Source: Litoreibacter arenae DSM 19593
Lineage (GTDB): Bacteria; Pseudomonadota; Alphaproteobacteria; Rhodobacterales; Rhodobacteraceae
Direction of reading: 5' to 3'
Assembly: GCF_000442275.2 (NCBI RefSeq)
Contig: NZ_KE557310.1
Coordinates: forward strand, 124,001-188,000
DNA length: 64,000 bases
The position numbers were made by a program, and so were the translations under genes. Below are positions 19,409 to 39,054 of the stretch, one piece after another (positions within the stretch are counted from its first letter, which is position 1; each line of letters begins with the position of its first letter). Under the pieces are notes generated by a model, which was given only the letters and a program-made list of their open reading frames with translations, was not told where the DNA came from and did not search any database.

Positions 19409-20754
19409 GCGCCCAGATCCTCGACCGTCAAGCTGAACGCTTCCATCGGATCGTCTAGTTCCAGCACGTGGTTCAGGCAAAACTCGTAGACGGCACCACG
19501 GCTCATTTCCGGCGGCGAGAACGGGAAGGCGAAGGTGGGCATTTCTTCATCCTCGGTCAGGGGATGGTGCAACAGGTAGGGGTTCAAAACCTTGGCCACG
19601 TCGCGCGACAACGCCTCGGTTGGCGCGGTGATCAACGCCAGCACGCCGACTTCCGTGCCCACCTGCGCGTCTGTGTCCAACGCGCCAAGCGTGGCGTCCA
19701 GCCCAATCACGCGCAGCTCGATCTCGAAGTCTTCACCCACGCGGGCGCGGGCTTTCTCGGTGGCTTTGGTCACGATGTCGTCGCACCATGCGCGGATGTT
19801 CGCGACGTAGCGCGGGTCGCGCACGGTGACCAGCGACACGGTCTGGAAGCCAGCCAACCGAGCGCCTTCCAACTTAACCGTGTAGCGGTCGGAGACGACC
19901 CATTCGCTGCCGGTGACCCGCACACGCTTGTCGTCCAGCGCCGTGTAGACGGCATGGGTCACGTCCAGATGCCCGCCCGGCTCGTACAAGATGTTCGGGT
20001 TGGAGTTCTCGTACAGCATGTGCGCGGAAACAGTGTGTGCCGTCGCGCGAGCGGCTGCGCCCATGGGCGTGATCGTGAATCCCTCCGCATCGAACTCGAC
20101 CAGAATTGTGCCGGAGTTCGGTGCTGTCGTCGCCAACGCGCCGCATTCCCCGATCTTGGCACCATGCCATGCCGCCCCGGCATGGCATCCCCGCGCCAGT
20201 GGCAAGGCAGAGATGATCGCCGTGTCCGTCGTCCGCCCGGCGATGACGATATCGGCGCCCGTTTCCAGCGCCGCCTGTATCTGCTCCGCGCCCGCCAGTG
20301 CCACGATGTTCGAGCAGGAGGCCAACACATCCTCCGAAATATCCGGCGCGGGGGACAGCGGGGAAATCTTGCCCTGCCCCAACGCGTCGATCATTGCATC
20401 CGGCCTCTGCCCGCTTTTCAGCACCGCCAGCTTCAGGGTCATGCCAAGCTCGCCCGCGATTTCGCGGGTGATCTCCGCCAACCAATCCACAGCGCTATTA
20501 GCCCCGCAGGTGCCTGCGGTGCCGATCACCAACGGCACGCCAGCCTCGGCGCGGGCCTGCATCAACTCGCGCCACTCCGCCTTTGTGGAGCCGCGCGCGT
20601 ATTTGGAGGTACCGGTGCCAAGGTAATGCGGCCCGCTATCGGTGGAGCCGCCGTCGATGGCGATAATATCAGGCCGCTCGGAAATGCCCCGCGCAAGTGC
20701 AGCGCGGTCATAGCCAAGGCCCAAAGCGCCCGAGGGGATCAACACCTTCACCAT
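19405..20754 (-). CDS. AtuA family (DUF1446) acyclic terpene utilization-like protein
   Basis: Protein of 449 residues in the AtuA/DUF1446 family, starting MVKVLIPSGALGLGYDRAAL at the ATG (complement of 20752-20754) that overlaps the tctA stop. The motif IIAIDGGSTDSGPHYLG and the HAMLYEN-like stretch later are characteristic; no signal peptide or membrane segment is seen. The family is named for Pseudomonas acyclic terpene catabolism but is widespread next to tricarboxylate transporters. With DUF4387 it probably forms a hydratase- or isomerase-like enzyme for the substrate brought in by TctABC (inference). I would not assign terpene breakdown: no other atu or liu genes are visible. Confidence 0.82.
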   Translation of the reverse strand: MVKVLIPSGALGLGYDRAALARGISERPDIIAIDGGSTDSGPHYLGTGTSKYARGSTKAEWRELMQARAEAGVPLVIGTAGTCGANSAVDWLAEITREIAGELGMTLKLAVLKSGQRPDAMIDALGQGKISPLSPAPDISEDVLASCSNIVALAGAEQIQAALETGADIVIAGRTTDTAIISALPLARGCHAGAAWHGAKIGECGALATTAPNSGTILVEFDAEGFTITPMGAAARATAHTVSAHMLYENSNPNILYEPGGHLDVTHAVYTALDDKRVRVTGSEWVVSDRYTVKLEGARLAGFQTVSLVTVRDPRYVANIRAWCDDIVTKATEKARARVGEDFEIELRVIGLDATLGALDTDAQVGTEVGVLALITAPTEALSRDVAKVLNPYLLHHPLTEDEEMPTFAFPFSPPEMSRGAVYEFCLNHVLELDDPMEAFSLTVEDLGA

Positions 20755-22259
20755 CAGTCTGTGATCGCTTGCGGCTTGCGCAGGATGTTGCGCAGGAACA
20801 TTGGCGCCACGAAGCCCGCGATTGCCGCCACCCATAGACCGATCGCAATCGGGCTGGAGAACAGGTAGGTCACGTCGCCGTCCGACAAGGTCATGGCACG
20901 GCGCAGCGCGTCTTCCATATTGCCGCCCAGCAGGATCCCAAGGATCACCGGCACCGTGGGGATATCGAGTTTGCGCAGGATGTATCCCAGAACGCCGAAG
21001 CCCACCATCATCAGCAGATCAAAATAGCTGCCGGACAGCGAATAGATGCCCACGAAAGAGATCATCGTCACGCCCGGAAGTAGTATCCACGCAGGCACCA
21101 TCAGGACCTTTACGAAGATTTTGACCATCGGCACGTTCATCAGCAGCAGCACGACATTGGCGATCAGCAGCGATGCGATAAGGCCCCATACGACCTCTGG
21201 CCGCTCGGTGAACAATGTCGGGCCGGGGGTGATGTTAAGCGTCATCAGCAGCGCCAAGAGCACGGCCGTGGTGCCCGAGCCGGGCACACCGAGCGTCAGC
21301 ATCGGCACCAGCGCGCCACCTGCGGCGGCGTTGTTGCCAGCCTCCGGCGCGGCTACGCCTTTGGGCACGCCCGTGCCGAAGCCGCCTTTTTCACCGGCGA
21401 TGGACTTCTCGGACATATAGGCCATGAAAGACCCCAGCGACGCCCCCGCACCCGGCAGAATCCCCGCGATAAAGCCCACACCGGAGGCCCTCAGCATGGT
21501 CCACTTGGTAGACCAGATGTCGCCCCACGGAATACCCACCTTTTCGAGTTTGACCCCGATGGACGAGCCCTTGCCATGGCTTTCGATGAAGAAGAACACC
21601 TCGGCAATTGCGAAGAGGCCGACGATGGCGACAAGGAAGTCGACGCCATCATACAGGTGCAAATTGCCGCCGGTCAGGCGCGGCAGGCCGGAGGACGAGT
21701 CCACACCGATCATGGCAATTCCCAGCCCGATACAGGCCGCCAGCGCGGCCTTGGCCTGATTGTTGGAGGCCATGCCGCCAAGGGTGCAGAAGGCCAGCAA
21801 GTAAAGGGCGAAATATTCGGCTGGGCCGAACAGGAACGCCACCCGCGCCAGCGACGGGGCCAGCAGCATCAGCCCGATGGTGGCCAGAAACGCGCCGACA
21901 AAAGAGGCGACACCTGACAGCACCAGCGCGTCGCCCGCGCGGCCTTGCTTGGCCATCGGATAGCCGTCGAGGGTGGTCATCAGCGCAGGCTCGTCACCGG
22001 GAATGTTCAGCAGGATCGACGAAATCCGCCCGCCATACATCGCGCCGTAATAAACGGACGTCATCAGCACCAAGGCGCTGGTAGCATCAAGTCCAAGTGT
22101 GAAGGTGATCGGGATCAGGATCGCCACGCCGTTCGACGGGCCAAGGCCAGGAAGCGCACCGATGATGGTGCCAAGGAAGCAGCCGCAGACTGCGAGAAAC
22201 AGAGTGTAGGGCGACAGCGCCACACCGAAGCCGAGCGCGAGGTTGGATAGAATGTCCAT
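20754..22259 (-). CDS. tctA: Tripartite tricarboxylate transporter large permease TctA
   Basis: Inner-membrane permease of 501 residues with about twelve hydrophobic segments. The start is MDILSNLALGFGVALSP. Signature stretches are GTIIGALPGLGPSNGVAIL, YYGAMYGGRISSILLNIPG and the second-repeat GAGASLGSFMAYMSEK, with LGVPGSGTTAVLLALLM. TctA is the translocating subunit, driven by the proton or sodium gradient. The ATG (complement of 22257-22259) follows the tctB stop by one base; a longer reading to 22346 would run into tctB. Confidence 0.93.
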   Translation of the reverse strand: MDILSNLALGFGVALSPYTLFLAVCGCFLGTIIGALPGLGPSNGVAILIPITFTLGLDATSALVLMTSVYYGAMYGGRISSILLNIPGDEPALMTTLDGYPMAKQGRAGDALVLSGVASFVGAFLATIGLMLLAPSLARVAFLFGPAEYFALYLLAFCTLGGMASNNQAKAALAACIGLGIAMIGVDSSSGLPRLTGGNLHLYDGVDFLVAIVGLFAIAEVFFFIESHGKGSSIGVKLEKVGIPWGDIWSTKWTMLRASGVGFIAGILPGAGASLGSFMAYMSEKSIAGEKGGFGTGVPKGVAAPEAGNNAAAGGALVPMLTLGVPGSGTTAVLLALLMTLNITPGPTLFTERPEVVWGLIASLLIANVVLLLMNVPMVKIFVKVLMVPAWILLPGVTMISFVGIYSLSGSYFDLLMMVGFGVLGYILRKLDIPTVPVILGILLGGNMEDALRRAMTLSDGDVTYLFSSPIAIGLWVAAIAGFVAPMFLRNILRKPQAITD

Positions 22260-22260
22260 A

Positions 22261-22749
22261 TCAGTGCCCCACGAACGGAATGAGAATAGAGATCGCGTCC
22301 CAGAGCTTTGCAGGCGTCGGGATGCGGTAGGCAACGATGTTGCCAAGGCCCAGCGCGAACTTGAACAGAACGAACAGACCCAGCGACAGGCCGACGCCGG
22401 AAAGGGCCGCGTTCCGCGCGTTCGGCGAAATCTGATAGCTCAGGATGCCCGCGGCGAAAATAGTGGGTAGGATAAATCCCAGAGGCTTCAACAGCACAGC
22501 GTAGATCGCCAACACGATCACGGCGACGCCCATGGAAATCCATGAACCGGCGGCGGGCCAGTCAGGCTCGGGGTCCGGCTTGAACAGCATGAACAGCGAA
22601 CAGATTGCCGCCACCCCGCCAATCAGCAGCGGAAACAGCTTCGGCAGGTATTCGCCCGAAAAAAGGTTCGTCTGAATCTGGGTGGCGGCCGCGATATACG
22701 CGACCGCCGTGATCAGCGCGACCAGACCAAATATCCGGTCGGAAGCCAT
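22261..22749 (-). CDS. tctB: Tripartite tricarboxylate transporter small permease TctB
   Basis: Small membrane subunit of 162 residues with four hydrophobic segments (about residues 5-22, 40-57, 75-108, 118-140), typical of TctB. It starts MASDRIFGLVALITAVAY at the ATG that overlaps the tctC stop (TAATG). The family is poorly conserved, so the call rests on topology, size and position between tctC and tctA. Confidence 0.88.
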   Translation of the reverse strand: MASDRIFGLVALITAVAYIAAATQIQTNLFSGEYLPKLFPLLIGGVAAICSLFMLFKPDPEPDWPAAGSWISMGVAVIVLAIYAVLLKPLGFILPTIFAAGILSYQISPNARNAALSGVGLSLGLFVLFKFALGLGNIVAYRIPTPAKLWDAISILIPFVGH

Positions 22750-23717
22750 TACTGGGTAACCCCCAGCTCTTTGGACATTGCGGCAATATCCGCGACAAGG
22801 CCGTCGACATAGGACTGGAAGTCGCCGCCCACTTTGGTGAACGGGGCCAAGCCGTTGTCTTTCATCGCCTGCGCCCACTCGTCGCTATCGGCAACCTGTT
22901 GCAGCTTGGCGGCCCACTCGTCAAAGCGCTCGTCAGAGATACCCTTGGGCACATAGAGACCGCGCCAGTTCACCGCGACCACGTCGTAGCCCTGCTCTTT
23001 GGCGGTCGGGATGTCGTCGAAGCCCGGCACACGCTCGTCAGTCAGAACCGCAATGACGCGAATGTCGCCATTGGCAAGAAAGGACACGACTTCGGACATA
23101 TCGCCGGTCATCGCCTGCGTGAACCCACCCACAGTTTGCGTGATCGCATCCGCGCCGCCGTCGACACCGATATACTTGATCTTGGTGATGTCGTTGAAGT
23201 CGGCCTTTTGCAGGATCATCAGCGGCTTCATATGGTCGAACCCGCCAACGGCAGAGCCGCCAGCGAAGGCCACGGAACCCGGATCAGCCTTGATGGCCTC
23301 CACCAGATCGCCGAGGCTTTGGTACGGGCTGTCAGCCGCAACCACGATGACGCCCGGGTCGGCACCGATGGCACCGACGAAGCGCACTTGGTCGGCGGTC
23401 ATTCCAGCATAGGCGTTTTGCGCCAGACGGGTTGTTGTGGCAGAGGATGCGGCCACGATCAGGTCGGCATCGTCGCTACGCTCGGTGACCACGTGGTTAT
23501 AGGCCAGACCACCGCCTGCGCCTGGCATGTTCGTGACTTGCACAGGAGTATCGACCGCGCCGATGTCATACATGATCTTGCCGATCTGGCGGCAGGTGAA
23601 GTCCCAGCCGCCGCCGGGGTTGGCTGGCGCGATGCACTCGGCAGCGGACAGCGCGGTGGTGGCCCCAAGGCCCAGAACGGCACTCGTCATGAGCGCCTTG
23701 AAAAGACGGTTCGTCAT
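22749..23717 (-). CDS. tctC: Tripartite tricarboxylate transporter substrate-binding protein TctC
   Basis: Periplasmic binding protein of 322 residues. It starts MTNRLFKALMTSAVLGLG, with GGGAGGAATCT immediately upstream of the ATG (complement of 23715-23717), and has a signal peptide to about ALSAAE. APANPGGGWDFTCRQI and VTNMPGAGGGLAYNHVV are the TctC hallmarks that form the carboxylate-binding loops. It is first in tctCBA-AtuA-DUF4387. Substrate unknown: citrate, tricarballylate and many other carboxylates are carried by the family. Confidence 0.93.
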   Translation of the reverse strand: MTNRLFKALMTSAVLGLGATTALSAAECIAPANPGGGWDFTCRQIGKIMYDIGAVDTPVQVTNMPGAGGGLAYNHVVTERSDDADLIVAASSATTTRLAQNAYAGMTADQVRFVGAIGADPGVIVVAADSPYQSLGDLVEAIKADPGSVAFAGGSAVGGFDHMKPLMILQKADFNDITKIKYIGVDGGADAITQTVGGFTQAMTGDMSEVVSFLANGDIRVIAVLTDERVPGFDDIPTAKEQGYDVVAVNWRGLYVPKGISDERFDEWAAKLQQVADSDEWAQAMKDNGLAPFTKVGGDFQSYVDGLVADIAAMSKELGVTQ

Positions 23718-23851
23718 AGATTCCTCCCAATTGACACGGCGGGTTACCCCGCACTTTGTCCCGGCTATCAGCCGGAACCTGTACGAACCTGTCACGACGC
23801 TTGGATTCCATCAAGCCATAAGGTGTTGATGGGGCGAGGAAGTATGCAACT

Positions 23852-24634
23852 TCATGCGAAGCGGATCGTCGCCGACCTTTCCCGGACCGCTGCAACGACG
23901 CTCATCGCCGCAAGAGCAGAGCTGCGCGGGTTTTCCGGCATTCCCTTGCCAGTGATGGTGAAAGTCAGCTCGCCGAAAGCGCCTTGCGCCGTGATCTCGT
24001 GGGTGTTGCCCTTGGCGTCAGGGTCGGCGATCAACGCAACCGTTGTGTCGTCCAGTCCGATACCGGCCAAGGCCACTGCCGCGGCCACATTGGCGTTCTT
24101 GGGGTACTGCAACGCCGCCTGCCGCGCCGATCCGGTGAAATGCGCGACCGCTGTGCCCAGCGGTTTGGACAGGTCCACGACCTCCTCGGCCGGAGAGCCA
24201 CGCCACCCTGCTGGCGGCTTGCGTCCGGTGTAGGTGACGCTTTGCAACTCCCCGACGCGCGCACCGCGCAAGGCATCGAGCGCACCAATCGCACCGCTCG
24301 CCAGCAGCAAAGCCCCACCGCCCTTTGCGGCCGCTTCGGTTAAGCTCTTAGCAATATCCTCGTCCGCCAGCGCCCCGACGGAAACTGTCAGTACGTCAAT
24401 CCCCCGCGCCAACGCGGTTGGGCCGTGCTCGGCCAAGCCGACGTGACCGGAGCAGTCGATCAGCAGGTTCGTGCCTTCAGGCAAGTCTTTGGCGGAGCCC
24501 ACGCAGGTCAGCCCTGTCTCGACCTGAAGCTCGGACACCCGCTCCGGACGGGTCAGGATCGTGGTGATCTTGCCACCGGTGTTGGCCCGCACGTAGTTGC
24601 CGATGGCGCCTGTGCCTAGAATTGCAATGCTCAT
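23852..24634 (-). CDS. Aspartate dehydrogenase (NadX/DUF108 family)
   Basis: Predicted L-aspartate dehydrogenase of 260 residues, NAD(P)-dependent, interconverting aspartate and oxaloacetate plus ammonia through iminosuccinate. The Rossmann loop AILGTGAIGNYV is at the N-terminus. The C-terminal DUF108 part has YPKNANVAAAVALAGIGLD and VALIADP, the family signature around the substrate site. It is 134 bp upstream of tctC on the same strand and 76 bp downstream of the MauG-like gene. In Roseobacter genomes such enzymes may feed oxaloacetate into the TCA cycle rather than quinolinate synthesis; no nadA or nadC is visible here. Confidence 0.85.
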   Translation of the reverse strand: MSIAILGTGAIGNYVRANTGGKITTILTRPERVSELQVETGLTCVGSAKDLPEGTNLLIDCSGHVGLAEHGPTALARGIDVLTVSVGALADEDIAKSLTEAAAKGGGALLLASGAIGALDALRGARVGELQSVTYTGRKPPAGWRGSPAEEVVDLSKPLGTAVAHFTGSARQAALQYPKNANVAAAVALAGIGLDDTTVALIADPDAKGNTHEITAQGAFGELTFTITGKGMPENPRSSALAAMSVVAAVRERSATIRFA

Positions 24635-26003: not shown

Positions 26004-26018
26004 GAAAGCCAATACCCG

Positions 26019-26486
26019 ATGAAGCCATTTCTTGCCCTGCTTGTGATGCTGACGCCCGCTCTTGCGGATATCGAGACTGCCCGCGACCTGATGGAGAACA
26101 GCGATTTTGAGGCGGCCTACACGGAACTGGTCCCTGCCGCCCGTGCCGGAAATGCCGACGCGGAGGAGTTGATCGGGATCATGTATGCGATGGGTCTGGG
26201 TGTCGAGCGCGACGACGTGCGGGCGTTCGAGTGGTATTTGCGCAGCTCCATGAAGGGACATCCGGGGTCGCAATCGGCTGTCGGCTGGTATTACGAAGTC
26301 GGTCGCGGCATGCCCGCGCCGGACCTGACCCGAGCTTATATGTGGTACACGCTGTCGGCCATTGGCGGCGACCCTGACGCGGCGATCAGTCTGGAAGAAG
26401 TGGTCAAGAAAATGACCCCTGAGATGATCGAGAAAGCCCATGTGCTGGTCACTGACTACAAAGGTTGGATGTATCCGTTCCGCTAG
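26019..26486 (+). CDS. Exported Sel1-repeat protein
   Basis: Protein of 155 residues starting MKPFLALLVMLTPALADIE (signal peptide to about residue 16), at ATG 26019. It contains three Sel1-like (TPR-type) repeats: GNADAEELIGIMYAMGLGV, then GHPGSQSAVGWYYEVGRGM, then MWYTLSAIGGDPDA. Such proteins act as periplasmic scaffolds. It is divergent from the MauG-like gene with only 15 bp between the two starts, so its promoter must lie inside the MauG-like reading frame or vice versa. Confidence 0.85.
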   Translation: MKPFLALLVMLTPALADIETARDLMENSDFEAAYTELVPAARAGNADAEELIGIMYAMGLGVERDDVRAFEWYLRSSMKGHPGSQSAVGWYYEVGRGMPAPDLTRAYMWYTLSAIGGDPDAAISLEEVVKKMTPEMIEKAHVLVTDYKGWMYPFR

Positions 26487-26525: not shown

Positions 26526-27581
26526 TTAGTTCAGGTCGCTTTCATAGGCCGCGTTTAGCTCGGCCTCGGCTTCATCCACCGCCGCGATCAACGCGTCTAG
26601 GATTTCGCTGCCGCCGTCGACGTTTTCACGAAACCACTCCTGCACAGGGGCCGCTGCTTCGGCAAAGGCAGCTTTTTCTTCAGGCGTCGGCACGTAGAGG
26701 TCGCCGCCACCCGCGACAAAGGCCTCGTAGGCTTCGATAGACTTGCGCTTGGGTGACGCGAAGGTGGCCTGCTGAAGCTGGCTGAACCCGTCCACGACGA
26801 CGCGGCGCAGGTCTTCGGGCATCGCCATGAAGTTGGCGTTCGACATCCACCACAGCGCACCCATATAGGCGTGGCCGTCCAGCGTCAGGTATTGCAATCC
26901 GGCATCGGGGAATTTCATCCCCATGATGTCGGTGATGCCGTTCTTGGAACCTTCCACAACACCCGTCTGGAACGAGGTGAACAGTTCCGGCCACGGGATC
27001 GGGGTTGGCGATGCGCCCATCGCGCGGACCAGTTCTTGCGGCAGGTCGGCGACTACGGTGCGAATCTTCAGGCCCTCCATGTCGGACGGCTTGGCGATGC
27101 GGCGCTGCGTGTTGGCGAAGTTGCGCCAGCCGCCGGTGTTGCCGATAGTCATCAAACGGATCGCGCCGTCCGATGTCTCCAGCGCCATGTCGCGCATCTT
27201 GCGCGTGAAGTCGCCGGTCAGCACGGCTTCGGCCACGCGGTCATTGGCCATCAGATATGGCAGGTCAAGAACCTGCACATAGGGGAAGATGCCAGCGGCG
27301 CCGCCGGAGGTCGAAATATAAACGTCGATCGACCCTTCCGCTACGCCCTCAAGGCATTCCGCCCCTGTCGCGCAAAGCTGGGTGCCAATGAACAACTCCA
27401 CCGCGATACGCCCGTTGGAGGCTGCTTCCACGTAATTTTTGAACACGACGAGGCCGTCATAATCCTCGTCGTTCTCGTTGGAGTTGGCCGTGGCGCGGAT
27501 GGTGAAATCCTGCGCCCATGTGGCAAGCGGCGTCGCGAGAAGTGCGGCGGTCAGCGCCACTTTGGTTAGGTTTTTCAGCAT
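26526..27581 (-). CDS. dctP: TRAP transporter substrate-binding protein (DctP type)
   Basis: Periplasmic binding protein of 351 residues with a signal peptide ending ATWAQD. GGAGG precedes the ATG by about six bases. The DctP core is present: LKIRTVVADLPQELVRAMG with the carboxylate-binding arginine, then ASPTPIPWPELFTSFQTGVV and VEGSKN. It is the last gene of the six-gene operon with the monooxygenase, so the ligand is plausibly the organosulfonate degraded by that operon (inference). Two cysteines (QLCATGAEC) early in the mature protein may form a disulfide. Confidence 0.92.
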   Translation of the reverse strand: MLKNLTKVALTAALLATPLATWAQDFTIRATANSNENDEDYDGLVVFKNYVEAASNGRIAVELFIGTQLCATGAECLEGVAEGSIDVYISTSGGAAGIFPYVQVLDLPYLMANDRVAEAVLTGDFTRKMRDMALETSDGAIRLMTIGNTGGWRNFANTQRRIAKPSDMEGLKIRTVVADLPQELVRAMGASPTPIPWPELFTSFQTGVVEGSKNGITDIMGMKFPDAGLQYLTLDGHAYMGALWWMSNANFMAMPEDLRRVVVDGFSQLQQATFASPKRKSIEAYEAFVAGGGDLYVPTPEEKAAFAEAAAPVQEWFRENVDGGSEILDALIAAVDEAEAELNAAYESDLN

Positions 27582-27606
27582 TGTATCCTCCCTATGGATG
27601 CTGTTG

Positions 27607-29136
27607 TCACGGCGATGGACTTATGCATGCCGCAAAACCGACCTCCGGACCGCAGCCCAGGAAACCGGCAAGATATGGCACCGTCATCGAGATGGCGGGG
27701 ACATAGGTGATTAGAAAAATAACAAAAACCTCAACCGCCAGAAACGGCAGGATCGCTTTGGAGATGGTCTCGACCTTCTCCCCCGACACCGTAGACGCCA
27801 CGAACAACACCAGCCCCATGGGCGGGGTGGCGAGGCCAACGGTCAGGTTGACCGACATGATGATGGCGAAATGGACGGGATGCACGCCAAGGTCGACGAA
27901 GATCGGGCCAAGGATCGGCCCGAGGATGATGATCGCGGGCCCCGCATCCAGAAACATGCCGACGATGAACAGCAGCAGGTTGATCAGGAACAGCAGCACC
28001 AGCGGGTTGTTGGACAGCGACAGGATGTAGTCCGACAGAATTTCCGGCGCGTGGGACAGCGACACCACGGTCTTGAACGACACCGCCGCGCCGACCAGAA
28101 ACAGCACCGCCGATGTCGACACCGCCGAGCGTGTCAGCACGTCGATCAGGTCGCGCCCGTTCATTGAGCGCAGCACGAAAAAGCTGACGATCAGTGCGTA
28201 TGCCACTGCCACCGCCGACGCCTCGGTCGGGGTGAACACGCCAATCAGGATGCCGCCCAGAATGATGATCGGGGTTTGCAGCGGCGCCACCGCTTTCTTG
28301 CACACCAGCCGGAAGTCGTTGGATACCCGTGCCTTGATCGCCTGCACGATCACATGCGCGACGGGCAGCGTCACCAAAAAGACCAGCCAGCCGTTGACGT
28401 GCTGCGGGATCACCCATGTCACCAAGCCAGACACCGCATAAAGCAGACCTGCCACGTTGATGCGGATCAGCACGAAGCTCACGGCGGATTCCAGCGGCGT
28501 GATGGTCTGGTCCTTGCGCACGATACGCTCCGCCTTGGGCAGGTCGTAGCGGTCCGCCATCAGGCGCACCATGACCATCAAACCGACGCCCACCAGAACC
28601 CCCGGCACGATCCCCGCAAGAAACAGCGCCGCCACGCTTTCGCCCATCACGTAGGCGTAAATAATCATGATGCCCGATGGCGGAATGATCGGCCCGATAA
28701 CGGAACTCGCCGCCGTGATCGCCGCAGCAAACTTGCGGGTGTAGCCGTTCTTCTCCATCGCGGGGATCAGGGTGGAGCCAAGCGCCGACGTATCCGCTAC
28801 GGCCGAGCCGGACAGTCCCGCGAACAGGATTGACGCAAGGATATTCACATGCGCCAGCCCGCCCCTTAGATGCCCCATGAAGGCTTGCGAGAACTCCACC
28901 AGCCGCAGCGTGATGCCGCCCCTGTTCATGATCTCGCCCGCCAGCATGAAGAACGGCAGCGCCATCAGGGGGAAGCTGTCCATGCCGTTGTAGAGGTTGC
29001 GGTAGAGGCCCGCGACCACGTTGCGCTGGTCGCCTTCCAGCATGACCAGCACGATAGGCGAAGCCAGCAGCGCGAAGACCACCGGCAGGCCGACCATGAT
29101 CAACAGCAAGAAGAGAGGCAGGAACCAAAGCAGCAT
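27607..29136 (-). CDS. dctM: TRAP transporter large permease (DctM type)
   Basis: Membrane permease of 509 residues; typical DctM is about 430. The start ATG (complement of 29134-29136) overlaps the dctQ stop. FAGLSGSAVADTSALGSTLIP, GPIIPPSGIMIIYAYVMG and GVFTPTEASAVAVAYALI are the DctM signatures. The extra length is an insertion of about 80 residues between the two halves (INVAGLLYAVSGLVTWVIP and following) with two further hydrophobic segments. It couples substrate import to a sodium gradient together with DctQ and DctP. Confidence 0.92.
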   Translation of the reverse strand: MLLWFLPLFLLLIMVGLPVVFALLASPIVLVMLEGDQRNVVAGLYRNLYNGMDSFPLMALPFFMLAGEIMNRGGITLRLVEFSQAFMGHLRGGLAHVNILASILFAGLSGSAVADTSALGSTLIPAMEKNGYTRKFAAAITAASSVIGPIIPPSGIMIIYAYVMGESVAALFLAGIVPGVLVGVGLMVMVRLMADRYDLPKAERIVRKDQTITPLESAVSFVLIRINVAGLLYAVSGLVTWVIPQHVNGWLVFLVTLPVAHVIVQAIKARVSNDFRLVCKKAVAPLQTPIIILGGILIGVFTPTEASAVAVAYALIVSFFVLRSMNGRDLIDVLTRSAVSTSAVLFLVGAAVSFKTVVSLSHAPEILSDYILSLSNNPLVLLFLINLLLFIVGMFLDAGPAIIILGPILGPIFVDLGVHPVHFAIIMSVNLTVGLATPPMGLVLFVASTVSGEKVETISKAILPFLAVEVFVIFLITYVPAISMTVPYLAGFLGCGPEVGFAACISPSP

Positions 29137-29732
29137 CAATCAGCCCCCGCCACGATTTCCTCGCGCAGGGGCGGCAGGCCGTCACCGCGCCCCAGTAACG
29201 TCGCGACCTGACGAACGATAAGTTCGATATTCACAAGGATCAGCAGGTTAATACCGACCCAAAGCGCCGCATATTGGTAGTTATTCTGGAACTTCGCGCC
29301 GCATTTGCCGATCTCGATCCCGAACGGCCAGCGCAGTGAAGACGAGCACCCACGCCCCGACAATGTATCGACATGGTTATTCAACCCGCGATCCCACGCG
29401 ACGAATAGCACCCACAGCGAAATGCCCAGCAGCAGCAGGCCCAGCAGACCCGCCAGCACCCGTGGCAGTGCCTGCTCGACCATGTCGATGGCGACGAACC
29501 CACCCATCCGGTAGGCCATCGGCGCGACGAGGCCGGTCATCCACAACATGCCGAACCGGGCACCCTCCTCGGTCCAGTTGGGCGCGTCGTTCAGCAGGTA
29601 ACGGAAGAAGACCTGCCCGAGGATCAGGCACACCATGATCGCCAATGCGGTGATCCCGATCCAGCGGCCGACGGACAGAATCCGGCTATTGACCCAATGG
29701 AGCAACCGGGCTGCGGACAGTAACACCTGCAT
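29136..29732 (-). CDS. dctQ: TRAP transporter small permease (DctQ type)
   Basis: Small membrane subunit of 198 residues with four hydrophobic segments. GQVFFRYLLNDAPNWTEEGAR in the first loop is the DctQ signature. Between the third and fourth helix lies an unusual loop of about 45 residues with two cysteines (GRGCSSS, GKCGAKF), longer than in typical DctQ. GGAGGAAAAG precedes the ATG. It follows the flavin reductase gene by 51 bp. Confidence 0.9.
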   Translation of the reverse strand: MQVLLSAARLLHWVNSRILSVGRWIGITALAIMVCLILGQVFFRYLLNDAPNWTEEGARFGMLWMTGLVAPMAYRMGGFVAIDMVEQALPRVLAGLLGLLLLGISLWVLFVAWDRGLNNHVDTLSGRGCSSSLRWPFGIEIGKCGAKFQNNYQYAALWVGINLLILVNIELIVRQVATLLGRGDGLPPLREEIVAGAD

Positions 29733-29783
29733 CTTTTCCTCCCCCCTTCCGAGACACCTCGCGACCTCCCCGCCGCGATGCGC

Positions 29784-30302
29784 TCACTGCGCCGTAAAAC
29801 GCCCCATCTGTCCCTTGTAGAAAGCGAGCGGATCGCCCTCTTCCCGCATCGCCGCACGGTTCACCTGTCCCAGCATGATGACATGATCCCCGCCTTCGTA
29901 GACTGCGGTTTTCGTGCATTCGAACCGCGCCAGACAACCTTCCAATACCGGCACGCCCTCGGCGTTTCGACGCAGGTCACGGTCGCGCAAAGCATAGACG
30001 TCTTTCGCGACCGCCCAGCATAAATCGTCCTGATCCGTCGACAAAACATGTACGGCGTAATGTGTGGCAGCCTCGAAATAGGAAAACCTGCGCGAGGTTT
30101 TATCGGGCGACCACAGCACCAAAGGCGGTGATAGCGACACGGACGAAAAGCTGTTTGCCGTGATCGCGGCGACGCCGTTTTCCGTGGCCGCGGTCACGAT
30201 GGTCACCCCCGTCGCGAACCGCCCGAACGCATCGCGCAGCAGGCGGGTGTTGTCCTCGTCCGGCACAAACAGATTGGTGGTGGTGCGGTCATGGACCGAC
30301 AT
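29784..30302 (-). CDS. smoA: Flavin reductase, candidate partner of the sulfonate monooxygenase (SmoA-like)
   Basis: NAD(P)H:flavin oxidoreductase of 172 residues with the FMN-binding split-barrel fold. FGRFATGVTIVTAATENGVA and ITANSFSSVSLSPPLVLWSP are the family hallmarks. It would supply reduced FMN to the adjacent LLM-type monooxygenase. The start ATG (complement of 30300-30302) overlaps the aldo-keto reductase stop. The symbol is by analogy with the sulfoquinovose monooxygenase cluster of Agrobacterium, where a flavin reductase, an aldo-keto reductase and an SsuD-like enzyme sit together. Confidence 0.8.
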   Translation of the reverse strand: MSVHDRTTTNLFVPDEDNTRLLRDAFGRFATGVTIVTAATENGVAAITANSFSSVSLSPPLVLWSPDKTSRRFSYFEAATHYAVHVLSTDQDDLCWAVAKDVYALRDRDLRRNAEGVPVLEGCLARFECTKTAVYEGGDHVIMLGQVNRAAMREEGDPLAFYKGQMGRFTAQ

Positions 30303-31192
30303 CACGCGACCTCCCGACCGAGGGCGGCCTCATACAGCTCGAACCACGTCTGGCGGTCCAGTTCGACCTTCATCGCGTCGGAAATTTTGGCGATCCGGTC
30401 CAGGTTGTTCGTCCCCAGCACTGGCAGGATCTTCGCCGGATGGCGCAGCAGGAACGCTACGGCCACCGCCGCACGGTCCACGCCTTGCTCGGCAGCGATA
30501 GCATCCAGACGATCCACAACTGCGCCCGTTCCGGTCATCAGATCACCACCCCCCAAAGGCGACCACGCCATCAGCGCGTGGTCGTGGCGTTGGTGGAAGG
30601 CTATGTCGCCATTTGTGAAGGGCGCGATCTCGGCCAGCGAGATTTCGATCTGGTTGGTTGCCAGTTGGGTCTTCATGCCCGATTGCAGCAACTCCCAATC
30701 ATAGGGCCGGAAGTTCGACACGCCGACGCTGCGCACCTTGCCGCTTGCCACGAGATCGTCCAGCGCCGCACCCGTCTCTTGATGGTCCATTAAGGGGTCG
30801 GGCCGGTGGATCAATAGCAAGTCGATATGATCAATCGCCATGTCGCGTAACGAGCAGTCGACCGAGTATTCGATATGCTTGCGTGAAGTGTCATAGTGTT
30901 TCACCCGCTTGTCCGCATAGCGGCCAGCGGGGGCGACGATGTCGCATTTGGTGACGATCTCCATCTGCGGGCGCAGGGACGGGTTGGCTTTCAACGCCGC
31001 GCCAAGCACACCCTCGGCCACGTAGCCGCCATATATATCGGCTTGGTCGAACGTGGTGATGCCCTGATCCAGACACGCCTGAATCTTCGCCTCTACATGC
31101 GGAGGGGAAGTGTCCGCATCATCGGCCACGCGCCACATACCGTAGACAAGGCGGCTGAAGGACAGGTCGGCGGTTAGCGAGACACGGTCCAT
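30302..31192 (-). CDS. smoB: Aldo-keto reductase, candidate 6-oxo-glucose reductase (SmoB-like)
   Basis: NADPH-dependent aldo-keto reductase of 296 residues. The catalytic tetrad is visible: aspartate 49 and tyrosine 54 in FDQADIYGG, lysine 82 in IVTKCDI and histidine 129 in LLLIHRPDP. The C-terminal cofactor region has LLRHPAKILPVLGTNNLDRI. In the SMO pathway SmoB reduces 6-dehydro-glucose, released after sulfite removal, to glucose. From memory of the Agrobacterium protein, the N-terminus (VYGMWR...DADTSP..V.AKI.ACL.QGITT) looks closely related, but I could not align it. Start and stop overlap both neighbours in ATGA motifs. Confidence 0.78.
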   Translation of the reverse strand: MDRVSLTADLSFSRLVYGMWRVADDADTSPPHVEAKIQACLDQGITTFDQADIYGGYVAEGVLGAALKANPSLRPQMEIVTKCDIVAPAGRYADKRVKHYDTSRKHIEYSVDCSLRDMAIDHIDLLLIHRPDPLMDHQETGAALDDLVASGKVRSVGVSNFRPYDWELLQSGMKTQLATNQIEISLAEIAPFTNGDIAFHQRHDHALMAWSPLGGGDLMTGTGAVVDRLDAIAAEQGVDRAAVAVAFLLRHPAKILPVLGTNNLDRIAKISDAMKVELDRQTWFELYEAALGREVA

Positions 31193-32346
31193 CAGCGGCG
31201 CTCCCCTGCGGCAAGCGGCGTGGCGGGCGGCTGCGACGGAACGCGACCGTAAGCGTGGGGCAAGGAGCAGGTTTTCATCTGCGGCAACACGCGGTTGCCG
31301 AAATGCTTGGCCTCGTCGATATGCGGGTAGCCCGACAGGATGAACGCGCGGATGCCCATCTCCTGGTAAGCCTCCAGCTTGCTGAGAACCTGATCGGTCG
31401 ACCCCACGATCGCGGCCCCGCAGCCGGAGCGTGCGCGGCCCACGCCCGTCCACATGTGCGGCTCGATATAGCCGTGATCATCGGCCACGTCGCGGTTCTT
31501 TGCTTGGTGGCTGACGCCCAAGGACTTGGCGTCCAAAGCGCGATCCCGAATGGCGGTGCCTTGCGCGTCGTCCAGCTTGGAGACGATGTATTCCGCGTAT
31601 TCCTTCGCCTCAGCCTCGGTGTCGCGCACAATGACATGCGTGCGCAGCCCGTAGTCCAGCGTACGGTCGTGCCGCGCGGCGGCCTCGTTGGCGGCTTTCA
31701 TGCGGCCCTCAAGTTCCTCTATTTTCTCGGGCCACATCAGGTAGACGTCGCAATACTCGCCGCACAACTCCAGCGCGTCGGGGGAGTAGCCGCCGAAATA
31801 CAGCAGCGGCCCGCCGGTCTGGTAGGGGCGCACGGGGTCGGTCGTCAGGCCCTTGAAGTCATAGATCTCACCAGTGTGATTGATCTCATCCCGCGTCCAT
31901 GCCTGTTTGAGGATTTGCACAACCTCGCGCGACCGTTGGTAGCGGTAGGGACTCGGCTCTGTCTGGCCGGGGAAGTCGGAGGAGATGATGTTCACCGTCA
32001 GCCGCCCTTCCAGCATGTGATCGAGCGTAGCGAGCGTGCGGGCCAGCATGATCGGTTGCATCTCGCCGCAACGCACGGCTGCCAGCAGGTTGATCTTTGA
32101 CGTGATCGGGGCGCATCCCGCGACGAAGCTCAGCGTGTCCTGACCAACCTGATAGGAAGACGGGCAAAGGATGTTGCGAAAGCCCTGAGCTTCGGCGGTT
32201 TTGACAATGTCGGAACAATGCGCCCATGAGGAGCGCAGATCACCATCCGGCACACCCAGAAACTGGTAATCGTCGGAGCACAACGCCGAGAACCACGAGA
32301 CCTCTGCCGCGTCCAAATCTGGTGACGTAACCGGAACAACTGTCAT
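31192..32346 (-). CDS. smoC: FMN-dependent sulfonate monooxygenase, SsuD/SmoC family (candidate sulfoquinovose monooxygenase)
   Basis: LLM-type flavin monooxygenase of 384 residues. GGGAGGAATCAC precedes the ATG (complement of 32344-32346). It aligns with SsuD along its length: LYFGGYSPDALEL, YGLRTHVIVRDT, WTGVGRARSGCG and FILSGYPHIDEA. The SsuD sulfonate-site residues Arg226, His228, Arg297 and Tyr331 are matched by Arg235, His237, Arg306 and Tyr340 with identical spacings (2, 71, 34). It should therefore cleave a C-S bond with FMNH2 and oxygen, releasing sulfite. Neighbouring SmoB- and SmoA-like genes point to sulfoquinovose rather than simple alkanesulfonates. First gene of the operon. Confidence 0.82.
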   Translation of the reverse strand: MTVVPVTSPDLDAAEVSWFSALCSDDYQFLGVPDGDLRSSWAHCSDIVKTAEAQGFRNILCPSSYQVGQDTLSFVAGCAPITSKINLLAAVRCGEMQPIMLARTLATLDHMLEGRLTVNIISSDFPGQTEPSPYRYQRSREVVQILKQAWTRDEINHTGEIYDFKGLTTDPVRPYQTGGPLLYFGGYSPDALELCGEYCDVYLMWPEKIEELEGRMKAANEAAARHDRTLDYGLRTHVIVRDTEAEAKEYAEYIVSKLDDAQGTAIRDRALDAKSLGVSHQAKNRDVADDHGYIEPHMWTGVGRARSGCGAAIVGSTDQVLSKLEAYQEMGIRAFILSGYPHIDEAKHFGNRVLPQMKTCSLPHAYGRVPSQPPATPLAAGERR

Positions 32347-32396
32347 GTGATTCCTCCCAAAACCCATTCGCAATTTCTTCTTGCGTAGCCTTGTCT

Positions 32397-32410
32397 TTGA
32401 TGTAGATCAA
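32397..32410. promoter_or_regulatory. Candidate operator for the divergent UTRA regulator
   Basis: Perfect dyad TTGAT-GTAG-ATCAA in the 102-bp gap between the divergent monooxygenase and UTRA-GntR genes, with a further GTATCAAT about 10 bp downstream. Position and form fit a local GntR/HutC-type operator controlling both directions. Confidence 0.5.
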
Positions 32411-32448
32411 TAGGGTATCAATTTTTTGCACAGAGAGGCTGGCGGCAA

Positions 32449-33159
32449 ATGTACGAGCGGCAAGACAGCCCTGCGGCGCTTCCGATTTACGCGCAGGTGA
32501 GCGAGCTTCTGATCCGTGAAATTGCGTCCGGACGACTTGCCGATGGCGCTCGCCTGCCGCCAGAGCGGCAGCTCGCGGCCACGCATCAAGTGACCGTGCG
32601 AACATTACGCAAATCTCTGAAGATACTTGAAGAAAAGGGCCTTCTCGAACGGATTCAAGGGTCTGGAAACTATGTCCGCTCCAACCCCGCCGCGCAAAGC
32701 ATCTATTCGATGTTCCGTATCGAGTTGTTGGAGGGCGGTGGGCTTCCGACCGCTAAGTTTCTCGACATATCCGAGCACACAAAGCCCGGCGATCTGCCTG
32801 CTTTTGGTAGTTCCCCGCGAGGAACCCGCATGCGCCGCCTGCGCTTTCTCAACAAGAAGCCCGCCGCGGTGGAGGAAATCTGGCTCGACGCGGACAGCGG
32901 CACGGTGGACCCAGCTCAGGTCTCGGATTCGCTGTATCGCTATTACCAGATGAAGCTTGGCTTCTGGATCACCCGTGCCGAGGATTACGTCAGTATCGGC
33001 AAGACCCCCGACTGGGCGCCGCCGGAATTCGGCCCCCAAGCCGGACAGATGACAGGCTATATCGAGCGGCTGAGTTGGGAGCAGAAACCCCATCCGGTCG
33101 AATACTCGCGAACATGGTTCGACACCGACATCGCCCGCTATGTACAGCGGCTAAAATAG
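32449..33159 (+). CDS. GntR family regulator with UTRA domain (HutC subfamily, SmoD-like)
   Basis: Regulator of 236 residues. The winged-helix domain is at about residues 10-78 (LPPERQLAATHQVTVRTLRKSL is interrupted here: recognition helix TVRTLRKSLKIL; wing RIQGSGNYV). The UTRA effector domain is at about 95-230, with VEEIWLDAD and the final EYSRTWFDTD typical. It is divergent from the six-gene monooxygenase-TRAP operon and most likely represses it until the sulfosugar or a product binds (inference). The Agrobacterium smo cluster also carries a GntR-type regulator. Confidence 0.88.
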   Translation: MYERQDSPAALPIYAQVSELLIREIASGRLADGARLPPERQLAATHQVTVRTLRKSLKILEEKGLLERIQGSGNYVRSNPAAQSIYSMFRIELLEGGGLPTAKFLDISEHTKPGDLPAFGSSPRGTRMRRLRFLNKKPAAVEEIWLDADSGTVDPAQVSDSLYRYYQMKLGFWITRAEDYVSIGKTPDWAPPEFGPQAGQMTGYIERLSWEQKPHPVEYSRTWFDTDIARYVQRLK

Positions 33160-33170
33160 GACAAAAAGAC

Positions 33171-34283
33171 ATGGGTCAACACGTCAGATACGGGCTTATC
33201 GGGTGCGGCATGATGGGACAGGAACACCTACGCAACATTGCACTTTTGCCCGACACCAGCGTCGGCGCAATTTTCGAGCCGGACGCGGGTATGGCGGCGC
33301 AGGCGTTGGTTTTCGCACCGAATGCCGCGCTGGTCGATAGCGTGGAAGCCTTGCTGGAGGTCGAAGACCTCGACTGCATCCTGATCGTCAGCCCAAATTT
33401 CCGCCACGTCGAACAGCTTGAGACCCTTGCCCAAAAACGCCCCCTGCCCGTGCTGGTGGAAAAGCCCCTGTTCACTGAGCCGCAGCACATCCCCCGTATG
33501 GAGGCGTTTGCGCAGAGCTATCCCGCCCCTGTCTGGGTCGCGATGGAATACCGGTACATGCCACCCATCGCCGCGTTTCTGTCTGAGGCGGAGGTGGCCA
33601 CCGGCGGGGTCAAGATGCTTACCATCCGAGAACATCGCTTTCCGTTCCTGCCCAAGGTGGGCGACTGGAACCGCTTCAACCGCGACACCGGCGGCACCTT
33701 CGTGGAGAAATGCTGCCATTTCTTCGACCTGATGCGCCTTGTGATGCGGTCCGAACCGGTCCGGGTGATGGCATCGGGCGGGCAAGACGTGAACCATCTG
33801 GATGAGAGCTATGACGGCGAGACGCCGGACATTTTCGACAACGGTTACGTGATTGTCGATTTCGCTTCAGGCACCCGCGCCGTGCTGGAATTGTGCATGT
33901 TCGCCGAAGGCGCCCGCTATCAGGAAGAGGTCAGCGCCGTCGGCCCGAACGGCAAGATCGAGGCTTTGGTGCCCGGTCCCGGCCGCTTCTGGCCGCCGCA
34001 TCTGGGCGACGCGCCAGTGCCGCAGGTGATCGTCAGCCCACGTCACCCCAAAGGACCGTTCGTGCGCGAGGTGCCGGTCGATCCGACCATTCTGGACGCG
34101 GGCGACCACAACGGCTCGACCTTCTACCAGCATCAGGGCTTCGTCGATCTGGTACGCGGCAACCGCGACGCGCCCGAAGTCGGGTTGCGTGACGGTATGA
34201 TGTCCGTCCTCATGGGCATGGCCGCGCAACGCTCGATGCTGGAACACCGCGCGGTGCGCATCGACGAGATGACCGCGCTCTAG
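33171..34283 (+). CDS. Gfo/Idh/MocA family oxidoreductase, candidate NAD-dependent sulfoquinovosidase
   Basis: NAD(P)-dependent protein of 370 residues starting MGQHVRYGLIGCGMMGQEHL at ATG 33171. The Rossmann loop is at residues 8-16, the EKP motif at 97-99 (VLVEKPL), and the active-site region GGTFVEKCCHFFDLMRL has histidine 183 and aspartate 186. It follows the UTRA regulator by 11 bp and belongs to the same locus as the SMO-type operon. A Gfo/Idh/MocA family of NAD-dependent sulfoquinovosidases (GH188, SqgA) has been described at such loci. No GH31 sulfoquinovosidase is visible here, so this gene is the best candidate. A simple sugar dehydrogenase is the alternative. Confidence 0.8.
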   Translation: MGQHVRYGLIGCGMMGQEHLRNIALLPDTSVGAIFEPDAGMAAQALVFAPNAALVDSVEALLEVEDLDCILIVSPNFRHVEQLETLAQKRPLPVLVEKPLFTEPQHIPRMEAFAQSYPAPVWVAMEYRYMPPIAAFLSEAEVATGGVKMLTIREHRFPFLPKVGDWNRFNRDTGGTFVEKCCHFFDLMRLVMRSEPVRVMASGGQDVNHLDESYDGETPDIFDNGYVIVDFASGTRAVLELCMFAEGARYQEEVSAVGPNGKIEALVPGPGRFWPPHLGDAPVPQVIVSPRHPKGPFVREVPVDPTILDAGDHNGSTFYQHQGFVDLVRGNRDAPEVGLRDGMMSVLMGMAAQRSMLEHRAVRIDEMTAL

Positions 34284-37941: not shown

Positions 37942-39054
37942 TCAGGAACCTGGGTCCGAATGGGTGTGCGACTCCTTCGCCGCCTTGTCCCAAAGCCATG
38001 TGAAAACATCCGACTGGGTGGACTGTACAGCCGCGCCGACGGTGATGCCGTAGTCGGCTGCCACAGTCTCGCCCTTGATGAGACGGTCCAACTCGTCGCC
38101 AAAGAAATCCGTATCTGTCGGCGCGTAGGTGATCTGCTTGGCCGTATGCGCGACGCCGCAGCGGCCCAGAATCGCGCCGCCAATAGCCTGCCCCAGAGCC
38201 GCGCCTGCCCAGCTGTCCATGGGATAGTGGACACCCGCGACCGTGCGGTTGACGGTGATCCGCTCCGCCAGTTTGCGCAGCAGTTTGCCCCTGTCGTCAT
38301 TGTCGGCATGGCTCGCCCAAGCCTCCATCAGGGCCAGAAGCACCGTCAGTACCGAATGAGCCTCGGTCGCGTGCGCGGAGGGAAACGCGCCGTGCCCGGG
38401 TGTTGCGATCATCGGCAGGATGCGGGTGTCGACCTGATCGGGGCGGCGGATCGCAAGCGCGTGCTTGACCATCATCGCCACATGGGCCGACAGAACCTGC
38501 GTCGCCGTGATCAACTCCAGCGTGTGGCGGCTTTGCGCAGGGTGCAGCGCGAGGATCATGGCGAAATACTCGGTCGGGAACCCAAGCTGTGACTGGATTT
38601 CCGCGCCGCGATCCGCCCTGAGGTCGGCATAGTCGCGCACCCATTTGGCCTGCGCCGCCATCAGCGCCTCGGTCGGGCGGGTAATCTTCACGAGCGTGCT
38701 AGTCTCGAAGCCGAGCGTGGTGTCGTCACCTGAAACGCTAATGTCGAGGTCTTTGATAAAGTCCGTCAGGTAGAGCGATGCCCGAACCCAGTCGGCGGAT
38801 CTTTTCATGTTTTTCTTGGAGTTCGCAGGCAGATGCGTGGGCTGGGGCGCGTCGCCCGAGCCGGCCACGTGCGCGATACCTTCCGCCGTGGTCTGAAGTC
38901 CAATAGCGGTCAGCGGATCATACGGGCCTACCGCCCCTGCGCCCAGAAAGTCGCCAAGACCGGTGCTGCCTACGCCACCAACACCTCCGACGCCGCCAAC
39001 ACCACCTACTCCGCCGACGCCACCAACGCCCCCTACCCCGCCATATCGCGCCAT
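37942..39054 (-). CDS. Vanadium-dependent haloperoxidase/PAP2 phosphatase family protein with GGV-repeat N-terminus
   Basis: Protein of 370 residues. All three motifs of the vanadate/phosphate site are seen: K197-x6-R204-P205 (KHALAIRRP), PSAH at 225-228 and NR270-x5-H276-x3-D280 (NRTVAGVHYPMD). These occur in both acid phosphatases and vanadium haloperoxidases; the soluble character and the ALHPAQSRHTLEL segment favour the haloperoxidase-like branch. Residues 5-28 are eight tandem Gly-Gly-Val units, which look like a flexible or aggregating tag. It lies between the SARP/TPR regulator (14 bp) and the S8 peptidase (1 bp). Confidence 0.82.
   Translation of the reverse strand: MARYGGVGGVGGVGGVGGVGGVGGVGGVGSTGLGDFLGAGAVGPYDPLTAIGLQTTAEGIAHVAGSGDAPQPTHLPANSKKNMKRSADWVRASLYLTDFIKDLDISVSGDDTTLGFETSTLVKITRPTEALMAAQAKWVRDYADLRADRGAEIQSQLGFPTEYFAMILALHPAQSRHTLELITATQVLSAHVAMMVKHALAIRRPDQVDTRILPMIATPGHGAFPSAHATEAHSVLTVLLALMEAWASHADNDDRGKLLRKLAERITVNRTVAGVHYPMDSWAGAALGQAIGGAILGRCGVAHTAKQITYAPTDTDFFGDELDRLIKGETVAADYGITVGAAVQSTQSDVFTWLWDKAAKESHTHSDPGS
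38971..39042. repeat. 9-bp minisatellite encoding (Gly-Gly-Val)8
   Basis: Eight 9-bp units of the form GGCGTTGGT/GGTGGAGTA on the minus strand, each encoding Gly-Gly-Val at the N-terminus of the haloperoxidase-like protein. Third positions vary between units, so the protein repeat is better conserved than the DNA repeat. The copy number is likely to vary between strains. Confidence 0.85.

Follow-up and report, generated by a model that had tools for sequence, protein, structure and literature searches.

A gene cluster for the use of sulfoquinovose (SQ), a sulfosugar of plants and algae, was analysed in a window of 64,000 nucleotides (contig NZ_KE557310.1, positions 124,001 to 188,000; all coordinates below count from the first base of the window) from the 3.68 Mb genome of a marine, Litoreibacter-like Rhodobacterales bacterium. 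Among the matches listed, the nearest named relatives of its SmoC protein belong to Litoreibacter species (94-95% identity), and a short contig binned as Sulfitobacter encodes a SmoC of 95% identity. Eight genes occupy positions 26526-34283 in two divergent groups. On the minus strand follow smoC (31192-32346), encoding the predicted SQ monooxygenase of the SsuD-like family, which depends on reduced flavin mononucleotide (FMNH2), smoB (30302-31192), an aldo/keto reductase predicted to act on 6-oxo-glucose, smoA (29784-30305), a flavin reductase, and the genes of a tripartite ATP-independent periplasmic (TRAP) transporter, namely the small permease dctQ (29136-29732), the large permease dctM (27607-29139) and the substrate-binding protein dctP (26526-27581), a putative receptor for SQ or SQ-glycerol. 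The plus strand carries gntR (32449-33159), a GntR/UTRA regulator, and sqgA (33171-34283), a predicted NAD-dependent sulfoquinovosidase of family GH188. Neighbouring genes are tightly packed, with 1 base shared by smoC and smoB and 4 bases each by smoB/smoA and dctQ/dctM. The Pfam assignments of the operon products all scored above the gathering score (Bac_luciferase, Aldo_ket_red, Flavin_Reduct with E 2.5e-34, DctQ, DctM with E 1.6e-109, DctP, and GntR plus UTRA). The locus is very probably a Roseobacter-type operon of the SQ monooxygenase (sulfo-SMO) pathway in which DctPQM imports SQ-glycerol and/or SQ.

The original prediction, made from the letters of the window, had described positions 26526-33159 as a smoC-smoB-smoA core with a divergent UTRA-type GntR regulator and a TRAP importer in place of an ATP-binding cassette (ABC) system. 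Every gene named there was found with its expected Pfam family, gene content and closest relatives in the PDB agree with the proposed core, and DctP, DctQ and DctM occur together with no ABC component among the eight genes. The limits of the operon were drawn too short at both ends. The gene after gntR, absent from the earlier account, is by sequence a GH188 sulfoquinovosidase, and a di-haem cytochrome gene downstream of dctP (24711 to about 26006, minus strand) is part of the neighbourhood as well.

Enzymes of the monooxygenase pathway

Comparison with the PDB placed SmoC next to 7olf (693 bits, E 1e-207) and 7oh2 (672 bits, E 2e-201), two entries with generic names which we take to be SmoC structures. 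None of the six further sequences listed at E<=1e-10 exceeded 180 bits, the next matches being 7jv3, 1nqk and 1m41 with 175-180 bits. SmoC is 83% identical to the SmoC of Ruegeria sp. TM1040, and 76% to that of a syntenic locus in Rhizobium sp. SL42. Identity falls to 51-54% for five relatives at a greater distance, a Novosphingobium protein among them, and to 31% for E. coli SsuD. SmoB behaved similarly, with 7bbz (430 bits) and 7bby (426 bits), presumably SmoB structures under generic names, well ahead of a next group at 216 bits. By similarity the monooxygenase thus groups with SmoC (672-693 against at most 180 bits) rather than with SsuD or its methanesulfonate counterpart MsuD, and the reductase groups with the enzyme of the SQ monooxygenase pathway, as had been proposed for both. 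SmoA was assigned by its Pfam Flavin_Reduct domain and by its position adjoining and overlapping smoB.

An alkanesulfonate (SsuD) or methanesulfonate (MsuD) monooxygenase dedicated to sulfur scavenging would belong to the same Pfam family, and the NCBIfam model for alkanesulfonate monooxygenases does score 224 bits on the window protein. This value lies far below the cut-off of 518, however, alkanesulfonate monooxygenase structures trail the two presumed SmoC structures by the margin given above, and the neighbours SmoB and GH188 have no role in alkanesulfonate scavenging, so that such an enzyme is scarcely conceivable here. The exact SsuD spacing of the sulfonate-binding residues had been offered in the original prediction as a sign of SmoC. 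The spacing holds, as W197, R227, H229, R298 and Y332 of E. coli SsuD (Met1 counted), which we assume to bind the sulfonate, correspond to W205, R235, H237, R306 and Y340 of SmoC with a constant offset of 8. As evidence for the placement it loses its value, since the five residues are identical in all 16 alignment rows and do not discriminate between SmoC and SsuD. The position of SsuD Cys55 is a Val in SmoC. Judged from these alignments, it is whole-protein identity and not the five residues that separates SmoC from SsuD.

Considered by Pfam alone, SqgA would be a Gfo/Idh/MocA oxidoreductase. Its PDB matches are 8zn9 (E 5e-163), 8qc3 (E 3e-108) and 8qc2 (E 1e-107), the latter two being SqgA structures for which the residues that hold SQ were given (Kaur et al. 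2023, PMC10755693). In the numbering of the Arthrobacter enzyme, the available text of that paper lists Lys107, Tyr136, Arg166, Leu170, Lys172, Glu189, His193 and His321 as substrate residues. Located by alignment motif, all nine checked residues are kept in the window protein (K98, Y127, E154, R156, L160, K162, E179, H183 and H313); the ninth is the Glu two positions before Arg166, and its identity as Glu163 of the paper as well as the choice of His321 are our own assignment. The nine residues are conserved in every row with a letter at the position, both in the 89 rows of SMO type and in the 19 rows from clusters of a sulfo-Embden-Meyerhof-Parnas (sulfo-EMP) type described below; two rows are gapped at one position, and some genomes appear more than once among the 108 rows. 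For SmoC, SmoB and SqgA alike, the best solved relatives thus fall in the presumed SQ set by a wide margin, and the enzyme activities are predicted by analogy with close characterised relatives.

The protein begins MGQHVRYGLIGCG, a start in which no signal peptide is visible by eye. Since SqgA also depends on NAD+, the glycoside must enter the cell whole, and SQ-glycerol is a likelier imported form than free SQ. A homologue of SqgA is found near SmoC in 75 of the 80 SmoC loci compared below. A search of the genome with positive controls detected no GH31 enzyme, which matches the replacement of GH31 by GH188 reported for such clusters in the available text of PMC10755693. According to the same source nearly all Roseobacter SMO clusters have GH188, and the combination of SMO enzymes with this family is therefore not new.

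Taken together, the following route is proposed. Passage of SQ-glycerol and/or SQ through the inner membrane would be the task of DctPQM, and cytoplasmic SqgA, with NAD+ as catalytic cofactor, would split SQ-glycerol into SQ and glycerol. SmoA would supply FMNH2 to SmoC, which would cleave the C-S bond with O2 to give sulfite and 6-oxo-glucose, and SmoB would reduce the latter to glucose. A glucokinase encoded elsewhere in the genome could phosphorylate the glucose, and sulfite may be exported or oxidised by proteins likewise encoded elsewhere.

The TRAP importer and its probable substrate

To place the importer, 80 SmoC loci were compared, the best 80 of 584 confirmed matches from genome contigs and therefore biased to close relatives. 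A TRAP transporter accompanies SmoC in 57 of the 80, an ABC system in 8 and neither in 15, four of which end 6 kb or less downstream of smoC; a homologue of the GntR regulator is found near SmoC in 80/80. The substitution of TRAP for ABC was therefore rightly seen in the original prediction, whereas the impression of an arrangement peculiar to this genome gives way to that of the commonest type among the closest loci. A wider family survey covered 295 genomes, almost one per genus, with a cut-off of E<=1e-100 for DctP. Of these genomes 124 have SmoC (the match in G275 is partial and interrupted by an in-frame stop), 102 have DctP and 76 have both, a co-occurrence with a Fisher p of 3e-16 when kinship is ignored. 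In 72 of these 76 genomes the two genes share a strand, with dctP 2.1-6.0 kb downstream of smoC; the remaining four have them on different contigs.

The best evidence for the substrate is the linkage of DctP to a second, unrelated SQ pathway in genomes without SmoC. SmoC was missing from 26 of the 102 DctP genomes, and in 18 of these 26 a GH188 gene stands at a distance of 2.7-6.5 kb from dctP; its product has all nine residues and is 43-54% identical to the SqgA of the window. Each of the 18 loci also encodes a PfkB kinase together with a fucose-isomerase-like protein, and a DeoC/LacD-family aldolase is encoded in 15. In L122, taken as representative, sulfofructose kinase is the closest PDB match of the kinase (181 bits), while the aldolase finds its PDB matches in 8tnf and tagatose-bisphosphate aldolases. 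By sequence these 18 clusters look like an SQ pathway of the sulfo-EMP type. Four further TRAP loci (L106, L113, L115 and L123) keep SmoB and/or SqgA, and SmoC was not found there; either the monooxygenase was lost or another enzyme that cleaves the C-S bond serves in its place. In L107 only a flavin reductase is kept near DctP. The 18 clusters and the four loci with SmoB and/or SqgA make 22 of the 26 SmoC-less genomes with an SQ-type gene near DctP; GH188 is found in 20 of the 26 when L106 and L115, which have an SqgA of the window type, are included.

The DctP proteins of the two settings form one set. At least 97% conservation in both the SMO and the EMP set was observed for 102 of 351 positions, and no position separates the two sets at thresholds of 90% and 80%. 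In the DctP tree the two contexts interleave, with at least 8 context switches by parsimony, of which well-supported branches force at least 3 for the EMP label. The DctP of the window falls in a group of 12 together with 7 EMP-linked proteins (Shimodaira-Hasegawa-like approximate likelihood ratio, SH-aLRT, 89). Because the importer is common to two pathways that share SQ or its glycoside as substrate, the simplest reading is that DctP imports this compound. From its genomic context, the putative substrate of the TRAP importer is therefore most likely SQ or SQ-glycerol.

Several observations weigh against this reading. No such DctP was detected in 48 of the 124 SmoC genomes, and the ABC loci and the loci with neither transporter indicate that TRAP is not required by the pathway. 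The best PDB match of DctP reaches 113 bits, so no close solved relative is at hand, and its AlphaFold model, built with 34 close homologues, is poor (mean pLDDT, the predicted local distance difference test, 61.7). Only sequence identifies the sulfo-EMP-type clusters as such; 10 of the 18 have a mutarotase and also 10 an aldehyde dehydrogenase, and nothing in the PDB matched the fucose-isomerase-like protein at E<=1e-10. In the stretch around dctP, no GH188, SmoA, SmoB or SmoC was found in L104, L116 and L120, and no GH188, SmoB or SmoC in L107. Two of the 26 SmoC-less DctPs (L116 and L121) are only about 51% identical, and 33 of the 77 inner branches of the DctP tree are weak.

An importer of C2 or C3 sulfonates (sulfolactate, 2,3-dihydroxypropane-1-sulfonate or isethionate) would account for the place of dctP in the operon by shared regulation instead of SQ uptake. 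The isethionate-binding DctP 8t9t is indeed the third-best PDB match (104 bits), and a TRAP transporter is named as the putative sulfolactate importer of Taurinivorans in the available text of PMC10507020. The short-sulfonate transporters have the DctPQM architecture in common with the window; the similarity of the window DctP to the isethionate protein ends at these 104 bits, however, and its linkage is to a pathway for a C6 sulfosugar. The linked genes serve SQ or its glycosides, with GH188 in the great majority of SmoC loci and in 18 of the 26 SmoC-less DctP loci, neither SQ pathway needs an imported C3 sulfonate, and ABC systems occupy the same place in the 8 SmoC loci mentioned. A short sulfonate as the substrate is accordingly considered improbable.

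Closer to the preferred substrate assignment is an importer that carries free SQ only, with SqgA serving glycosides that arrive by another route. Five of the 80 SmoC loci show no SqgA, so SmoC clusters without a linked GH188 do exist. Against this stand the cytoplasmic setting of SqgA deduced above, by which glycosides must enter the cell, and the lack of any other sugar importer in the operon. The ABC binding protein of related loci had no match at E<=1e-10 in the genome, in a search that had no positive control. Import restricted to free SQ is thus doubtful, though clearly less remote than the import of a short sulfonate, and uptake of SQ-glycerol, alone or with SQ, is preferred.

The sulfoquinovosidase of Agrobacterium is a GH31 enzyme. 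Homologues of SmoC and SmoB and a flavin reductase are shared with the sulfo-SMO (sulfo-ASMO) pathway of Agrobacterium tumefaciens, whereas the window has a TRAP transporter in the place of the ABC transporter and GH188 in the place of GH31. According to the available text of the sources, SmoABC of A. tumefaciens go together with an ABC transporter for SQ-glycerol (PMC9594981, PMC12890257), and uptake as characterised in an SMO bacterium is by an ABC transporter (PMC9594981). The window operon is a member of the Roseobacter sulfo-SMO clusters with GH188 (PMC10755693), with which it has the SMO enzymes and the NAD-dependent SqgA in common. Of the words TRAP, transporter, permease, importer and cytochrome, not one occurs in the main text of that paper, to which the search was confined. 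A TRAP route for SQ or a role of the cytochrome was not encountered in the literature searched, whose coverage did not extend to Liu et al. 2023 and Sharma et al. 2022.

The TRAP arrangement itself is visible in the public annotation of Ruegeria sp. TM1040, Rhizobium sp. SL42 and Salipiger. On the megaplasmid of TM1040 (NC_008043) the order is the same, SqgA-GntR / SmoC-SmoB-SmoA-DctQ-DctM-DctP, followed by a Dabb protein, a TPR protein, a 'cytochrome c peroxidase' and a 'putative sulfate exporter'; the window differs in that no sulfate exporter gene lies beside its cytochrome. In Rhizobium sp. SL42 (L144) the TRAP-type SMO cluster is present in full on a plasmid, together with a Gfo/Idh/MocA gene in the place of SqgA and a sulfate-exporter gene, which suggests transfer between Rhodobacterales and rhizobia. 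A second type of ABC system stands beside SMO genes in L136 and on plasmid pMaD9 of Marinovum algicola (L145), where the operon has an added esterase and a second dehydrogenase.

The available texts state that SQ is made at about 10 billion tons a year (PMC10755693) and that Roseobacter-clade bacteria are among the reported marine SQ degraders (PMC13372026). If SQ-glycerol does pass through the TRAP transporter, uptake in the commonest SMO arrangement among the close relatives compared would follow an uncharacterised route driven by ions. dctP could then serve as a marker of SQ uptake in ocean data, and the di-haem cytochrome would offer a well-defined candidate for functional study.

The accompanying di-haem cytochrome

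The cytochrome gene follows dctP on the same strand, with a small Sel1-repeat protein (26019-26486, Pfam Sel1) between them on the plus strand, which holds the same place in some relatives. Its start codon is uncertain, as position 26006 is not a start and the frame is open from 26441. The product belongs to Pfam CCP_MauG and has a leader-like start and two haem sites, CATCH and CASCH, whose C, C and H are kept in 95% or more of 53 aligned rows. The variable axial position is a Met in cytochrome c peroxidase (CCP) and a Tyr in MauG. Near the expected place of CCP Met275, just past the end of the alignment, 95% or more of the 53 rows have a His (H342 in the numbering of the 431-residue protein), which is the invariant H331 of a 17-row cytochrome alignment. 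HDGR is found at the place where CCP and MauG have WDGR. No relative of the cytochrome turned up in a viral scan.

The cytochrome is present in 37 of the 80 SmoC loci, all of them TRAP loci. With orthologues defined by 450 bits or more, it was detected in 83 of the 295 genomes, 77 of which have DctP, with the two genes adjacent in 64. Four of the six orthologues without DctP lie directly behind smoCBA. With moderate confidence, the cytochrome is regarded as a part of SQ use. A more far-reaching proposal, advanced tentatively and with somewhat less than even odds in our judgement, is that the TRAP transporter for sulfoquinovosides moves as a module between SMO and sulfo-EMP types and is accompanied by a periplasmic di-haem cytochrome dedicated to SQ use.

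Two candidate functions of the cytochrome were weakened by its distribution. Oxidation of sulfite accords poorly with orthologues in sulfo-EMP-type clusters, which should release no sulfite directly, and with a sulfate-exporter-like gene in ABC-type loci without the cytochrome. Modification of DctP accords poorly with the four genomes that have the cytochrome behind smoCBA and lack this DctP. In 13 of 15 picked genomes the closest paralogues (47-52% identical to the window protein) have XylF/XylH-like and CRTAC1-like genes as neighbours, for example on plasmid pPGA1_262 of Phaeobacter inhibens. Sugar import in this family may thus be accompanied by a class of di-haem cytochromes, which in the periplasm perhaps oxidise either the sugar or a protein partner. 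Among the stretches L151 and L152-L166, paralogous CCP-like cytochromes are found beside XylF/XylH-like ABC genes, ROK and CRTAC1 proteins (13/15 stretches).

A PhyH-family dioxygenase gene lies between dctP and the cytochrome gene in L104, L109, L112, L120 and L030, and a YdjC-like gene is also present in L104, L112 and L119. Genes for a TctABC-like tripartite tricarboxylate transporter and an aspartate dehydrogenase (20754-24634, minus strand) adjoin the cytochrome gene on the same strand. As they had no match at the SmoC loci compared, save for a TctA-like gene (34%) in L140, they were left out of the system.

Regulation and downstream functions

The gap between smoC and gntR measures 102 bases and contains a putative operator at 32397-32422, which combines an ATTGAT-type direct repeat with a TTGAT-N4-ATCAA inverted repeat. 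Such a gap could be located in 72 of 81 sequences, with relatedness kept in. The motif ATTGATAC is present in 53 of these 72 gaps, and exact 5-base arms at a spacing of 4 in 33. In the genome, TTGATNTACATCAA has one exact match, which lies in the gap, and two other places match with one mismatch. We infer that the GntR/UTRA protein may control both divergent promoters through this repeat.

For the products of the proposed route, a glucokinase, one clear PF03601 exporter-like gene and two Oxidored_molyb proteins are encoded elsewhere in the genome, the best PF03601 match being on another contig. Some of these may take part in the fate of sulfite. Further along the window, an open frame at 37942-39054 (minus strand) starts with GGV repeats and continues, by eye, with a PAP2-type phosphatase/haloperoxidase-like stretch.

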